Positions 14,659 through 48,706 of a stretch of DNA of 64,000 bases are shown one piece after another. Each line of letters starts with the position of its first letter. The stretch's first letter is position 1. The stretch is from Tistrella mobilis (GTDB taxonomy: Bacteria > Pseudomonadota > Alphaproteobacteria > Tistrellales > Tistrellaceae). The position numbers and the translations under genes are program-made. The stretch spans positions 1,467,501-1,531,500 of the forward strand of contig NZ_CP121017.1 of NCBI RefSeq assembly GCF_041468085.1, given 5' to 3'. A model generated the notes under the pieces. That model was not told the DNA's origin and made no database searches. It saw nothing but the letters and a program-made list of their open reading frames with translations.

Positions 14659-16236
14659 ATGTCCAAAGTCCTGATTTCCGACAAGATGAGCCCCGCCGCC
14701 GCCGAGATCTTCGCCTCGCGCGGGATCGAGGTCGACGTGAAGCCGGGCATGACCCCGGACGAGCTGCGCGCGGTCATCGGCCAGTATGACGGCCTCGCCA
14801 TCCGCTCGGCCACCAAGGTCACCAAGGACATTCTGGCGGCCGCGACCAATCTGCGTGTCGTCGGCCGTGCCGGCATCGGCGTCGACAATGTCGACATTCC
14901 GGCGGCGTCGGCCCATGGCGTGGTCGTGATGAACACGCCGTTCGGCAACTCGATCACCACCGCCGAGCACGCGATTTCGCTGATGCTGTCGATGCTGCGC
15001 CAGATCCCGGCGGCCAATGCCTCGACCCATGCCGGCAAGTGGGAAAAGAACCGCTTCATGGGCGTCGAAGTCACCGGCAAGACCCTCGGTGTCATCGGCG
15101 TCGGCAATATCGGTGCCATCGTCGCCGACCGTGCCCAGGGCCTGAAGATGAAGGTGATCGGCTTCGATCCTTTCCTGTCGCCCGAACGTGCGCAGGATCT
15201 GGGCGTCGAGAAGGTGGAGCTGGACGAGCTGTTCCGCCGCGCCGATGTCATCACCCTGCACACGCCCCTGACCGACGGCACCCGCGGCATCATCGGCGCC
15301 GATGCCTTCACCAAAATGAAGGACGGCGTCTATATCGTGAACTGCGCTCGCGGTGGCCTGGTGGTCGAAAAGGACCTGAAGGCGGCGCTTGAGTCCGGCA
15401 AGGTGGCGGGTGCGGCCCTCGACGTCTTCGCCGAAGAGCCGGCGAAGGAAAATGTGCTGTTCGGTGACGAGCGCGTCGTCGCCACCCCGCATCTGGGCGC
15501 CAGCACCGTCGAGGCGCAGGAGAATGTGGCCCTGCAGGTGGCCGAGCAGATGGCCGATTATCTGTTGACCGGCGCCATCACCAACGCAATCAACGTGCCG
15601 TCGGTGACCGCGGAAGAGGCGCCCAAGCTGAAGCCCTATATGAAGCTGGCCGAACAGCTGGGCAGCTTTGCGGGCCAGCTGGCCGAGAGCGGCCTGCGCG
15701 GCGTGACCGTCGAATATTCGGGCCAGGTTGCCACTCTCAACACCCGTCCGATCACGGCGGCCCTGCTGACCGGCCTGCTGCGTCCGCTGCTCGACAGCGT
15801 CAACATGGTCAACGCCCCGATCGTCGCCAAGGAGCGCAACATCGCCGTCACCGAGGTGCGCAGCGACAAGGCGACCGATTTCCAGACCCAGATCAAGCTG
15901 ACCATCTCGGACGAACGCGGCGGCCGCAGCGTTGCCGGTACTCTGATCGCCGGCAATCGCCCGCGTCTGGTCTCGGTCGAGGATGTCGCGATCGAAGCCG
16001 AGCTGGCCGAGAACATGCTGTTCGTGGTCAACAACGACAAGCCGGGCTTCATCGGCGCGGTCGGCCGCGCGCTCGGTGAGGCGGGCATCAACATCGCCAG
16101 TTTCCATCTCGGCCGTCAGGCACCCGGCGCCCGCGCCATCTGCCTGATTGAGGTTGATCAGCCGCTGCGCGAGGCGGTGCTGAAGCAGGTCCAGGGCCTG
16201 CCCAACGTGATCACGGCCCTGTCGCTCAGCTTTTGA
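14659..16236 (+). CDS. serA: D-3-phosphoglycerate dehydrogenase, long form
   Basis: Catalyses the first step of serine synthesis, oxidising 3-phosphoglycerate with NAD. The 525-residue protein is the long form: catalytic and NAD-binding domain (GVGNIG at 147-152; NCARGGLV with the catalytic Arg; TPHLGAST with the catalytic His), an intervening ASB domain at about 320-450, and a C-terminal ACT domain (from about 453, FVVNNDKPGFIGAVG) that usually senses serine. It pairs with serC upstream. Its last four codons, LSF-stop, lie inside the first unit of a 35-bp tandem repeat. Confidence 0.97.
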   Translation: MSKVLISDKMSPAAAEIFASRGIEVDVKPGMTPDELRAVIGQYDGLAIRSATKVTKDILAAATNLRVVGRAGIGVDNVDIPAASAHGVVVMNTPFGNSITTAEHAISLMLSMLRQIPAANASTHAGKWEKNRFMGVEVTGKTLGVIGVGNIGAIVADRAQGLKMKVIGFDPFLSPERAQDLGVEKVELDELFRRADVITLHTPLTDGTRGIIGADAFTKMKDGVYIVNCARGGLVVEKDLKAALESGKVAGAALDVFAEEPAKENVLFGDERVVATPHLGASTVEAQENVALQVAEQMADYLLTGAITNAINVPSVTAEEAPKLKPYMKLAEQLGSFAGQLAESGLRGVTVEYSGQVATLNTRPITAALLTGLLRPLLDSVNMVNAPIVAKERNIAVTEVRSDKATDFQTQIKLTISDERGGRSVAGTLIAGNRPRLVSVEDVAIEAELAENMLFVVNNDKPGFIGAVGRALGEAGINIASFHLGRQAPGARAICLIEVDQPLREAVLKQVQGLPNVITALSLSF

Positions 16237-16337
16237 GCGACCCCTTGATAAAAACCGCGCTCAGCTTTTGAGCGACCCCTTGATAAAAACCGCGCTCAGC
16301 TTTTGAGCGACCCCTTGATAAAAACCGCGCTCAGCTT
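16224..16337 (+). repeat. 35-bp tandem repeat copying the serA stop region
   Basis: Three perfect 35-bp units (16224-16258, 16259-16293, 16294-16328) and a 9-bp start of a fourth. Each unit begins GCTCAGCTTTTGAGC, a hairpin with a 6-7 bp stem once flanks are counted, followed by GACCCCTTGATAAAAACCGC. The first unit includes the last codons and TGA of serA, so later units are copies of the gene's 3' end. The rest of the 315-bp gap to hisZ (16338-16551) holds no gene I can support. Confidence 0.95.
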
Positions 16338-16551
16338 CTGGGCGTCGGGGGTTCTCACGGCATCGGAACCGGTCGCCCTCTCGGGGGCGGCCGGTTTCGT
16401 GCGTTTGCGGTTGAGTGCTTGGGCCCGGGGGGCTACACTCCGCCCCGGCCGTCGGCACCCGGAAAGCGGGGTCGTGACGGCCTTCGTGCGTCTTGAACCG
16501 GCCGTGGAAATGCGCGGTCCGGATGTTTTCCATGGGTTGAGATCGGGGCCG

Positions 16552-45002: not shown

Positions 45003-45551
45003 TCAGAAGCTCGGCGGCGTGCAGGCGGAGACGATTTCGGCTTCTTCCTCGCCGACATTGCGGAAGCGGTGGGGCAGGCGGCTGTCGAAGTAATAGCCGT
45101 CGCCGGCTTCCAGCACGCAGCTCTCGCCGCCGACGGTCAGTTCGATCCGGCCGCGGACCACGATCCCGCCCTCTTCCGACTCGTGTCGCAGCAGCTGCTT
45201 GCCGGTATCGGCCCCGGGGGCGTAGCGCTCGTGCAGGATCTGCATCCGCCGCCGGCTCAGATTTTCACCGATCTGGGCATAGGCGACCGAGCCGCGGGCG
45301 ATCTGGGTCAGCTCGTCGGCCCGATAGAAGGCCCGCTGCCGGGTGGTGAGGTCGAGCGAGAAGAACTCCGACAGCGAGATCGGAATCCCCTCCAGCACCT
45401 TCTTCAGTGATCCGACCGAGGGGCTGACCTTGTCCTGTTCGATCAGCGAAATGGTCGCATTGGTCACTCCGGCCCGCTTGGCCAGCTCACGTTGCGACAG
45501 GCCATAAATCTGCCGGATGGTCTTGAGGCGCGCACCCAGATCGCCGCTCAT
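45003..45551 (-). CDS. XRE-cupin transcriptional regulator (PuuR-like)
   Basis: A 182-residue regulator with an N-terminal helix-turn-helix (about 6-60, GLSQRELAKRAGVTNATISLIEQDKVSPSVGSL) and a C-terminal cupin (about 115-178, GGIVVRGRIELTVGG, DGYYFDSRLPHRFRN). PuuR-like proteins repress polyamine or amino-compound catabolism and are released by the compound. It is divergent from the omega-aminotransferase/alanine dehydrogenase genes, its likely target (inference). Start at 45551 follows GGGAGAAG; an upstream extension is not conserved-looking. Confidence 0.9.
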   Translation of the reverse strand: MSGDLGARLKTIRQIYGLSQRELAKRAGVTNATISLIEQDKVSPSVGSLKKVLEGIPISLSEFFSLDLTTRQRAFYRADELTQIARGSVAYAQIGENLSRRRMQILHERYAPGADTGKQLLRHESEEGGIVVRGRIELTVGGESCVLEAGDGYYFDSRLPHRFRNVGEEEAEIVSACTPPSF

Positions 45552-45745
45552 CGTCCCGCTTCTCCCCGCTCCATGCCGGCCGCCCTGCCGGTTCCTGTTC
45601 AAGATATTTGACATTCCATGTGTGCTGCAACGCAAAATCAATGGCTTGCAATACCGATGGAAATCACTTTGTCGAGTTTAATTGCCAATGCTAGGCTGTT
45701 CCACAGGATGAGAGGTGACGCCCGCTGGTCGTCGCCGATCCCCTT

Positions 45746-46081
45746 CAGCCGCCATTGCGGCGGCGGCCAAGGGCGCGGCAGCGCCCGCCCGGCGAGGGAC
45801 GAACAACCAGACTCCAGCCGCCATTGCGGCGGCGGCCAAGGGCGCGGCAGCGCCCGCCCGGCGAGGGACGAACAACCAGACTCCAGCCGCCATTGCGGCG
45901 GCGGCCAAGGGGTGCGGGAGCACCCCGCCCGGCGAGGGACGAACAACCAGACTCCAGCCGCCATTGCGGCGGCGGCCAAGGGGTGCGGGAGCACCCCGCC
46001 CGGCGAGGGACGAACAACCAGACTCCAGCCGCCATTGCGGCGGCGGCCAAGGGCGCGGGAGCACCCCGCCCGGCGAGGGAC
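45746..46081 (+). repeat. Five 69-71 bp tandem repeats with two hairpins each
   Basis: Units start at 45746, 45815, 45884, 45955 and 46026 (spacing 69, 69, 71, 71). Each has hairpin 1, GCCGC-CATT-GCGGC; hairpin 2; then CCCGGCGAGGGACGAACAACCAGACTC split over the unit boundary. Hairpin 2 is GGGCGC-GGCA-GCGCCC in units 1-2, GGGGTGC-GGGA-GCACCCC in units 3-4, and a hybrid in unit 5. Changes on both sides of the stem keep pairing in units 1-4. The array ends 28 bases before the aminotransferase start and fills most of the 557-bp gap from the divergent regulator. The 71-bp spacing breaks any reading frame, so it is not coding. Confidence 0.95.
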
Positions 46082-46108
46082 TGACAAACCAACAGGAGCG
46101 ACGCGGTC

Positions 46109-47431
46109 ATGGCGCGCATCACGGTTCCGAACGATCTGGACGCGCATTGGATGCCGTTCACGGCCAATCGCCAGTTCAAGGCGGCGCCCCGCCTGCTGGT
46201 CGGGGCGAAGGACATGTACTACACCTCGCATGACGGCCGTCAGGTGCTGGACGGCTGCGCGGGGCTGTGGTGCGTGAATGCCGGCCACGGCCGCGACAAG
46301 ATCTCCGAGGCGGTCGCCCGTCAGATCTCGGAGATGGATTATTCGCCCTCGTTCCAGATGGGCCATCCGCTGAGCTTCGAGCTGGCGAGCCGCCTGGTGG
46401 AGCTGGCGCCGGACGGTATCGATCATGTGTTCTACTGCAATTCCGGCTCGGAAGCGGTCGACACGGCGCTGAAGATGGCGCTGGCCTATCACCGCATCCG
46501 CGGCGAGGGCAGCCGTACCCGCCTGATCGGCCGTGAGCGCGGCTATCACGGCGTCGGCTTCGGCGGTATCTCGGTCGGCGGCATCGTCTCCAACCGCAAG
46601 CATTTCGGCACGCTGCTCTCGGGCGTCGACCATCTGCGCCACACCCATGATCTGGCCCGCAACGCCTTCTCGTGGGGTCAGCCCGAGCATGGTGCCGAGC
46701 TGGCCGACGATCTGGAGCGGCTGGTTGCACTGCACGACGCCTCGACCATCGCGGCGGTGATCGTGGAGCCGATCGCGGGCTCGACCGGCGTGCTGATCCC
46801 GCCGAAGGGCTACCTGAAGCGCCTGCGCGAGATCTGCGACCGCCATGGCATCCTGCTGATCTTCGACGAGGTCATCTGCGGCTTCGGCCGGACCGGCAAG
46901 GCCTTCGGCGCCGACAGCTTCGAGGTGACGCCGGATCTGATGACCACCGCCAAGGGCATCACCAATGGTGCGGTGCCGATGGGTGCGGTCTTCGCGAAGA
47001 AGGAGATTTACGACACCTTCATGACCGGGCCCGAGCATCTGATCGAATTCTTCCACGGCTATACCTATTCTGGCCATCCGCTGGCCTGTGCGGCGGCGCT
47101 CGCCACGCTCGACATCTATGCCGAAGAGAAGCTGTTCGATCGGGCGGCGAGCCTGTCGGAGTATTTCGGCAAGGCGGCGCATGCGCTGCGCGATCTGCCG
47201 AATGTCATCGACATCCGCAATTACGGCATGGTCGCCGCGGTCGAGCTGTCGCCGCGTGCGGGTGAGCCGACCAAGCGGGCCTATGAGGTGTTCGTGCGGG
47301 CCTATGAGCAGGGCGTGCTGCTGCGCTTCACCGGCGACATCATCGCGATTTCGCCGCCGCTGATCATCGACGAGGCCCAGATCGACCATCTCTTTGCGGT
47401 CCTGTCCGAGGCGATCAGGACGACCGCCTGA
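46109..47431 (+). CDS. Omega-amino acid:pyruvate aminotransferase (class III)
   Basis: A 440-residue PLP enzyme moving an omega-amino group (beta-alanine, or possibly taurine or a polyamine product) to pyruvate, giving alanine. It has HWMPFTANRQFKAAPRLL, a beta-alanine:pyruvate transaminase hallmark, then YCNSGSEAVDTALKMA, RGYHGVGFGG, IVEPIAGSTGVLIPPKGYL, LIFDEVICGFGRTG and PLP lysine Lys282 in TTAKGITNGAVPMG. AGGAG stands 10 bases before ATG. The repeat array forms its leader. An alanine dehydrogenase gene follows, which would recycle the alanine formed. Confidence 0.92.
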   Translation: MARITVPNDLDAHWMPFTANRQFKAAPRLLVGAKDMYYTSHDGRQVLDGCAGLWCVNAGHGRDKISEAVARQISEMDYSPSFQMGHPLSFELASRLVELAPDGIDHVFYCNSGSEAVDTALKMALAYHRIRGEGSRTRLIGRERGYHGVGFGGISVGGIVSNRKHFGTLLSGVDHLRHTHDLARNAFSWGQPEHGAELADDLERLVALHDASTIAAVIVEPIAGSTGVLIPPKGYLKRLREICDRHGILLIFDEVICGFGRTGKAFGADSFEVTPDLMTTAKGITNGAVPMGAVFAKKEIYDTFMTGPEHLIEFFHGYTYSGHPLACAAALATLDIYAEEKLFDRAASLSEYFGKAAHALRDLPNVIDIRNYGMVAAVELSPRAGEPTKRAYEVFVRAYEQGVLLRFTGDIIAISPPLIIDEAQIDHLFAVLSEAIRTTA

Positions 47432-47581: not shown

Positions 47582-48706
47582 ATGCTTCTGGGCGTGCCCA
47601 AAGAGATCAAGACCGACGAGCACCGGGTCGGCCTGACCCCCGCCGCCGTGCGCGAGCTGGTTCATCATGGCCACAACGTGCTGGTGGAGCAGGGCGCCGG
47701 GCTGGGGGCAGGGCTCGACGATGCGGCCTATGAGGCGGCGGGTGCCACCATCGTGGCCGATGCCGAAGAGGTCTTCGCCCGTGGCGACATGATCGTGAAG
47801 GTCAAGGAGCCGCAGCCGGTGGAATGCCGCAGGCTCCGCCCCGGCCAGCTGCTGTTTACCTATCTGCATCTGGCGCCCGATCCTGAACAGACCCGGCTGC
47901 TTCTGGACAGCGGCGCCACCGCCATCGCCTACGAGACCGTCACCGATGCGGCGGGCCGCCTGCCGCTGCTGGCGCCGATGAGCGAGGTCGCCGGCCGCAT
48001 GTCGGTCCAGGCCGCCGCCCATGCGCTGGAAAAGACCCAGGGCGGGCGCGGGGTGCTGATGGGCGGCGTACCGGGTGTTCGCCCGGCGCGGGTGGTGGTG
48101 CTGGGCGGTGGCGTGGTCGGCACCAATGCCGCGCGGCTCGCCATCGGGCTTGGCGCCGAGGTGGTGGTGATCGACCGTTCGCTCAACCGGCTGAAGGAGC
48201 TGGACGGGCTTTACGGCCCGGCCATGCGCACCCTCTATGCCACGCGTGAGACCATCGAAGAGGCCGTGATTACGGCCGATGCGGTGATCGGCGCGGTGCT
48301 GGTGCCGGGGGCGGCGGCGCCCAAACTGATCGACCGGCCGCTCCTCAGCCGCATGCAGCCGGGGGCGGTGCTGGTCGATGTCGCCATCGACCAGGGCGGC
48401 TGTTTCGAAACCTCGCGCGCCACCACCCATCGCCAGCCGACCTACGAGGTCGACGGCATCGTCCATTACTGCGTCGCCAACATGCCGGGCGGCGTTGCCC
48501 GCACCTCGACCTTCGCGCTCAACAACGCGACCCTGCCTTTCGTGCTGGCGCTGGCCGACAAGGGGGCCGCCCGGGCGCTGGCCGAAGATCCGCATCTGAT
48601 GAACGGTCTGAACGTCCATGCCGGACAGCTGACCATCGAGGCCGTGGCCGAGGCCCAGAACCTGACCGCCGTCACCCCCGCCGACGCGCTCTCGCGCGCC
48701 GCCTGA
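47582..48706 (+). CDS. ald: Alanine dehydrogenase
   Basis: NAD-dependent conversion of L-alanine to pyruvate and ammonia. The 374-residue protein starts [20 protein letters not shown] and has [11 protein letters not shown] with the substrate lysine, [10 protein letters not shown] with the catalytic His, Rossmann motif [22 protein letters not shown], and [25 protein letters not shown] precedes the ATG. It follows the aminotransferase by 150 bp on the same strand; together they convert an omega-amino donor into aldehyde plus free ammonia with pyruvate recycled. Confidence 0.96.

Follow-up and report, generated by a model that had tools for sequence, protein, structure and literature searches.

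Is the tandem repeat that precedes a class-III aminotransferase gene in Tistrella mobilis a control element of that gene, or does it belong to something more widespread? In the window (the whole 64,000-nucleotide stretch of T. mobilis DNA analyzed here), the array occupies positions 45746-46081, where Tandem Repeats Finder reported a period of 71, 4.8 copies, 97% matches, and a score of 598. On its 3' side and on the same strand lies the aminotransferase gene (46109..47431, forward; NCBIfam omega-aminotransferase AptA, 762 bits against a cut-off of 500), followed by a gene for alanine dehydrogenase (47582..48706, forward; TIGR00518, above cut-off). On its other side, a PuuR-like regulator with HTH_3 and Cupin_2 domains is encoded on the reverse strand (45003..45551; 146 bits, under the PuuR cut-off of 211).

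Architecture of the array

An earlier note, made from the sequence alone, had described five tandem units of 69-71 bp that face an XRE-cupin regulator and end 28 bases before the aminotransferase ATG. Tandem Repeats Finder recovered the array and a covariance model its five units, the xre-cupin gene is divergent from the array, and the distance to the ATG at 46109 is 27-29 bases depending on where the last unit is taken to end. The covariance model, whose training set included these same units, marked them on the forward strand with start-to-start spacings of 69, 69, 71, and 71. Unit 1 (45747..45802, 78.8 bits), also delimited from its sequence, consists of hairpin 1 (GCCGCC-ATTGC-GGCGGC), the linker GGCCAA, a variable hairpin 2 (GGGCGC/GCGCCC), and the 3' motif GCCCGGCGAGGG, an order found in every unit of the array with a hairpin 2 stem that depends on the unit. 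Unit 2 (45816..45871, 78.8 bits) has the stem type of unit 1. In unit 3 (45885..45942, 71.0 bits) both arms of hairpin 2 are altered to GGGGTGC/GCACCCC, and unit 4 (45956..46013, 71.0 bits) is identical to unit 3. Unit 5 (46027..46083, 69.6 bits) carries a recombinant stem, GGGCGC/GCACCCC, in which a C-A mismatch is the one mismatched pair. The two hairpins per unit, the two-armed change between units 1-2 and 3-4, and the recombinant fifth unit with its C/A mismatch had all been read correctly at the outset; to these we add one extra C in unit 5. Because just two stem types and one recombinant occur among the units, the array alone offers thin evidence of covariation, and the family-wide set described below supplies it.

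The period of 69-71 bp does not keep a reading frame across the units; a coding origin of the array was therefore rejected, and long open reading frames spanning it are taken as artefacts. An Rfam scan of the array returned no family at its threshold. The sole Rfam match in the region, CRISPR-DR20, scored 16.5 bits against a cut-off of 42, and a CRISPR was rejected.

Dispersal of the unit in T. mobilis and its congeners

When the T. mobilis genome (G000) was queried with a single unit, 77 matches were obtained at E ≤ 10 and 59 at E ≤ 4e-4. Five of these 59 constitute the present array and one (C4:4464936) lies inside a gene, leaving 53 other places; the matches group as clusters of 1-6 units. 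The unit is thus dispersed, and nearly all of its copies are outside genes. With many copies at unrelated intergenic sites, the earlier proposal that the array could control the aminotransferase operon is not supported. The alternative named in that proposal, a REP/BIME-type element, is the better reading in that the repeat is dispersed, but no conserved REP-type transposase accompanies it.

Many copies were also detected in two congeners, G001 and G002. Comparison of copy number in these relatives showed the aminotransferase locus to be occupied in all three species, by five units in G000 and two each in G001 and G002. Among the sampled clusters, 11 sites were common to three species, 12 to two, and 13 were found in one, counts that understate site sharing because the G001 and G002 clusters were only partly sampled (L095, listed as G002-only, is occupied in G001 too). 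Two sites differ in occupancy: the L038 insert is present in G000 with an empty site in G001 and G002, and the L095 insert is present in G001 and G002 with an empty site in G000. The flanks of both have drifted, so that the exact ends of the inserts cannot be fixed, and the TNA duplication described below for G407 is not readable at either site. The L038 stretch also holds a 6S RNA match (1955-2162) barely over its Rfam cut-off, approximately 2 kb from the Tistrella element. At two further loci, arrays in opposite orientation bracket one gene or gene pair (L031, 4042-4283 and 5611-6066; L033, 4023-4173 and 6505-6718), a layout that recurs at the corresponding loci in both congeners.

Base pairing in the second stem

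We quantified covariation in 97 distinct units. The alignment behind the covariance model R1, which omits one of these units and adds one unit of this array, was chosen by patterns that fix the linkers and leave hairpin 2 free. Double changes occurred at five of the six pairs of hairpin 2. Across the whole structure there were 98 double-change cells, compared to 24.6 in shuffles, and the covariation score was reached by none of 500 shuffles; on two weaker measures, some shuffles did as well as the data (pairs with a double change, 9/500; pair types, 24/500). Hairpin 1 scarcely varies among these 97 units. In a wider alignment from other lineages (A3; 75 matches, 65 distinct), which was fitted to the model and so leans toward the structure, hairpin 1 was changed on both sides at four of six pairs. 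At L246, L234, L185, and L154, it is rebuilt as CGGCC/GGCCG or GCGCCC/GGGCGC, double changes that support this hairpin. The hairpin 1 arms are unpaired in the most abundant unit of genome G407 and its like in G053 (GCGAG/GCGAG in G407).

A further hairpin, variable in sequence, terminates immediately upstream of the core in 39 of 70 Tistrella units, 42 of 43 Asticcacaulis units, and 10 of 27 other units, counting units without another core just upstream. The control for this count was the mean of three shuffles per unit, and no shuffled control reached that score. In the Tistrella 5' hairpins, whose stems were preselected for high score, 427 of 433 pairs were Watson-Crick; of 131 Tistrella units, 119 had a hairpin 2 that was perfect over six pairs. 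Departures from Watson-Crick pairing over all stems comprised 60 G-U and 51 A-C pairs, with single helices leaning both ways and copies that are not independent.

These data support the conclusion that base pairing of the second stem is maintained across many copies and species, and the stem changes proved to be paired in relatives as well. The original inference from the array, that paired change reflects selection for structure, holds as far as the pairing itself is concerned. It is weakened by the fact that template switching can repair both arms of a short palindrome in one event, as set out in PMC8794818, so that paired change alone does not settle selection for structure. According to this mutational alternative, switching during replication copies one arm onto the other, and selection for structure is unneeded. 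We regard it as a live possibility, somewhat short of an even chance: the stems are nearly perfect yet specific to each copy (with the 5' hairpins picked for high score), and there is no overall excess of G-U over A-C departures. What it leaves unexplained is the conservation of loops and linkers across orders, part of which was imposed by the search patterns. The template-switching reading is compatible with a mobile-repeat origin of the array and does not exclude it. The conserved linkers, their invariance being partly by construction since the patterns fix portions of them, suggest that something may recognize the core.

Distribution across Alphaproteobacteria

Among the matches listed, the core was found in Asticcacaulis, Magnetospirillum, Phaeospirillum, Telmatospirillum, Tistrella, and several Rhodospirillaceae assemblies. 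In a sample of the class, searched with strict filters and with the best 14 candidates scored per genome, 6 of 385 genomes carried the core, three of them Tistrella, including the window's own. Within one family it was present in 47 of 55 genomes, the richest having at least 103 matches. The repeat occurs patchily across the class and reaches high density in a few lineages. In genome G270 (L232, L238, L244, L250, L254, and L258), long perfect hairpins flank the core, several ending in TAGAGC..GCTCTA, and some of these flanking hairpins stand beside the core in extra copies. An Rfam scan of five element-bearing loci returned no family at cut-off on the element itself; ar14 (L110) and mir-9209 (L038) appeared as weak matches far under their cut-offs and were rejected. 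A search of the open-access literature found no published description of this repeat, which is a weak negative.

Matching flanks in G407

Genome G407 contains at least 150 matches to the repeat, of which, among the matches listed, approximately 100 share one identical score. We extracted 29 distinct full copies, all 126 bp long and running from TACC to GGTA; because copies were chosen by these two ends, worn copies are missing from the set. The flanking 3-mers were identical on both sides in 25 of the 29. For the 21 copies not adjoining another full copy, the flanks were identical in 17 and had the form TNA on both sides in all 21. When flanks were permuted among these 21, the mean number of identical pairs was 5.8 and the maximum 14, and none of 5,000 permutations reached 17. 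A stricter set dropped five of the 21, which either shared or nearly shared a flank consisting of another short repeat or adjoined a fragment; here 12 of 16 copies had identical flanks (permuted mean, 5.3; 3 of 5,000 permutations reached 12). Matching TNA flanks as a target duplication of transposition are thereby supported in one recently expanded genome. Alternatively, the T and A beside the G407 copies could belong to the element, with the middle base alone duplicated. One of eight G407 copies listed with predicted neighbors abuts a stop codon exactly.

Elements of the IS1031 group (IS5 family) typically generate target duplications of the form TNA. In the G407 draft genome, a search for a transposase with matching ends found two DDE_Tnp_1 matches, neither of them within a pair of element ends, and no insertion sequence matching the TACC..GGTA ends was found at these two loci. 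No TNA duplication was apparent by eye in Asticcacaulis, where the element ends resemble TA-GAGC and GATC-TA, which hints at a different target. A separate short repeat of approximately 70 bp, starting CAGTTGCCACCGACGG and ending TTTCTAG, repeatedly adjoins the element (L299, L303, L305, L317, and L347 in G407; L240 in G053).

Relation to known repeat classes

Palindromic-module mosaics, some of them tandem, lie between genes in the BIME of enterobacteria and the BOX elements of Streptococcus pneumoniae. The present repeat differs from these in sequence and host group, and the relation is one of analogy only. On a partial comparison, the closest published parallel appears to be the BrickBuilt MITE of Porphyromonas gingivalis, which has head-to-tail internal repeats between a leader and a tail, is always intergenic and multi-copy, is built of a 23-nt repeat without gaps, occurs in P. 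gingivalis and P. gulae, and has ends that match IS5-family elements (PMC4596501). Both are miniature multi-copy mobile elements with head-to-tail tandem repeats. The present unit is different in being 69-71 bp long with two hairpins, in extending over several alphaproteobacterial orders, and in having no matching insertion sequence that we could find.

Of the repeats described in this bacterial class, the closest, again on a partial comparison, are the CGTC-tagged REPs. In PMC3733652, REPs are recognized by four nucleotides, GTAG or CGTC, that tag one end of the palindrome, and CGTC families are said to occur in every order of the alpha subdivision. Tagged REPs and the present repeat have in common short palindromes and many copies. 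Unlike the REPs of that description, this repeat has at least two hairpins per unit and no conserved Y1 transposase. The core consensus of the 97 sequences contains neither tag; a GTAG or CGTC string in either sense falls within the outer 10 bases of 6 of the 97 units, including units of this array. A PF01797 (Y1 transposase) gene was detected in 3 of 11 repeat-bearing genomes and in neither G001 nor G002, and the single such gene of G000 has no repeat within its 3.2-kb locus. Given the patchy occurrence of PF01797 and the unflanked G000 gene, a REP-associated tyrosine transposase was rejected as the mobilizer.

Descriptively, the repeat resembles REPs in its many palindromic extragenic copies, mostly in gaps that contain a gene 3' end. 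It resembles MITEs in being a short, non-coding, multi-copy unit with sharp ends, as seen in the 126-bp G407 unit and at the empty sites, and in its target duplications in G407 (17/21 and, in the stricter set, 12/16), which are not readable in Tistrella and not apparent in Asticcacaulis. Its interior is more conserved than its ends, the reverse of the usual MITE. We would call the family MITE-like on account of its duplications and REP-like on account of where its copies lie.

A mobile repeat as the probable origin of the array

Taking these results together, we think that the array probably arose by tandem amplification from one copy of a non-autonomous mobile repeat, dispersed and of MITE/REP-like character. 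The full element would comprise a variable 5' hairpin, then a core of approximately 50 nt, plus a variable 3' hairpin in some lineages; the core itself would run in the order hairpin 1, linker GGCCAAG, variable hairpin 2, and GCCCGGCGAGGG. Its spread may depend on a trans-acting transposase that duplicates a 3-bp TNA target, a step that has support in G407 and is extended by us to Tistrella. TNA covers the stop codons TAA and TGA as well as TTA and TCA, the same codons read on the opposite strand. An element that inserted at a stop codon would restore that codon and could spare the gene, and placement at gene 3' ends could then result from stop-codon insertion together with selection against promoter disruption. 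In Tistrella, slippage or unequal recombination would then have generated further head-to-tail copies of the core, as the 5, 2, and 2 units at the aminotransferase locus suggest. Pairing of hairpin 2 may persist for either of two reasons: the machinery that mobilizes the element requires DNA in a folded state, or imperfect palindromes are repaired by template switching. Any effect of the array on aminotransferase expression would be mild at most.

Several observations count against this mobile-repeat reading. Three species retain the array site, although neutral drift would not call for this; no 5' hairpin is evident at the array, the hairpin 1 arms of the most abundant G407 units are unpaired, and no transposase with matching ends was found in G407. 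The more conserved interior, the possibility that the T and A at the G407 copies belong to the element, the lack of a readable or apparent TNA duplication in Tistrella and Asticcacaulis, and the non-significant deficit of divergent gaps in G000 (below) also count against it. More tentatively, and with a good deal of doubt, we consider that the core may be a folded nucleic acid recognized by its shape and constant linkers by a widely shared putative enzyme, with a fixed interior and terminal hairpins that are free to change, an arrangement contrary to that of ordinary MITEs. If true, many Alphaproteobacteria would harbor mobility guided by structure, or else an RNA that serves the cell.

Under the mobile-repeat reading, the supposed regulator of a single operon becomes one member of a repeat family that reaches high density in several alphaproteobacterial lineages, has no Rfam match at threshold in the stretches scanned, and has no description that we found in the open-access literature. 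How the element moves can be tested in G407, given the recent burst there and the TNA repeats. The variable yet well-paired hairpins likewise provide a natural test of whether stem covariation must always imply selection for structure or may also come about by template switching.

Gap placement and possible roles of the array

We took 25 stretches around the main G000 matches (L030-L054), in which 24 clusters passed the pattern, and assigned neighboring genes with a simple gene finder. Two of the 24 clusters, this array and L039, lie between divergent genes. Divergent gaps held 2 of 24 clusters in G001, 2 of 22 intergenic clusters in G002 (one further G002 cluster was scored within a predicted gene), 2 of 38 in Asticcacaulis, and none of 21 in other lineages; these counts omit contig-edge clusters (11 in Asticcacaulis, 10 in other lineages) and three clusters scored inside predicted genes. 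As a baseline drawn from the sampled G000 stretches and the window, element-free gaps of at least 60 bp comprised 31 divergent, 74 co-directional, and 6 convergent gaps. Against this baseline, convergent gaps were over-represented among the G000 clusters (7/24 versus 6/111; Fisher P = 0.002), and the deficit of divergent gaps was not significant (2/24 versus 31/111; Fisher P = 0.06). The elements show a tendency to avoid promoter-side (divergent) gaps. Both orientations relative to the gene occur and neither is fixed across lineages, and ten flanking proteins at three clusters looked unrelated when judged by eye. The clusters are thus not tied to related genes in one orientation upstream of a start, and most are not upstream leaders.

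This placement is also what would be expected of a domesticated 3'-end element that stabilizes or terminates transcripts, as has been proposed for REPs, and that is kept for that role. All but two clusters in each Tistrella genome lie in non-divergent gaps, which contain at least one gene end, and the convergent-gap excess in G000 and the 11 sites common to three species agree with such a role. The same bias, however, could follow from TNA insertion at stop codons combined with selection against promoter disruption, the orientation to the gene varies, and a scan of the array for terminator-like sites followed by a run of T was negative. On balance we judge domestication unlikely.

The immediate surroundings of the array bear on whether it acts in its own operon. 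The xre-cupin gene and the array are separated by an intergenic block (45551..45716), approximately 165 bp long, that is well conserved in alignments of three species and likely holds the promoter and operator, though a simple sigma-70 scan found no promoter site. The short stretch immediately 5' of unit 1 (45717..45746) differs in sequence among the three species, and the variable 5' hairpin present at many other copies is not evident there before unit 1. From its position between divergent genes and 27-29 bp before the aminotransferase start, the array is plausibly transcribed as the leader of that gene; the conserved upstream block adds to the plausibility. A rival reading is control by a cis-regulatory RNA leader specific to the operon, of a riboswitch or attenuator-like kind. 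That the array is on the same strand as the gene, is kept in three species, and maintains its hairpin 2 pairing would fit such an RNA. Against it, the same unit recurs at the 53 other matched places in G000, mostly in non-divergent gaps, the copy number at the locus varies, the G-U and A-C departures (non-independent copies, single helices leaning both ways) show no one-strand G-U excess, and the array has no Rfam match, so we consider this role very improbable. Least credible, to the point of near dismissal, is the idea that the array serves the divergent xre-cupin regulator as a set of DNA operators: the HTH-cupin gene adjoins and a direct repeat could bind a dimer, but the units are dispersed far from the regulator and into other orders, and the conserved block between regulator and array is the more natural operator site.

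Elsewhere in the window, at 16223-16344, lies a separate tandem repeat of 35 bp (3.5 copies, 97% match) that contains a CGCTCA..TGAGCG palindrome.
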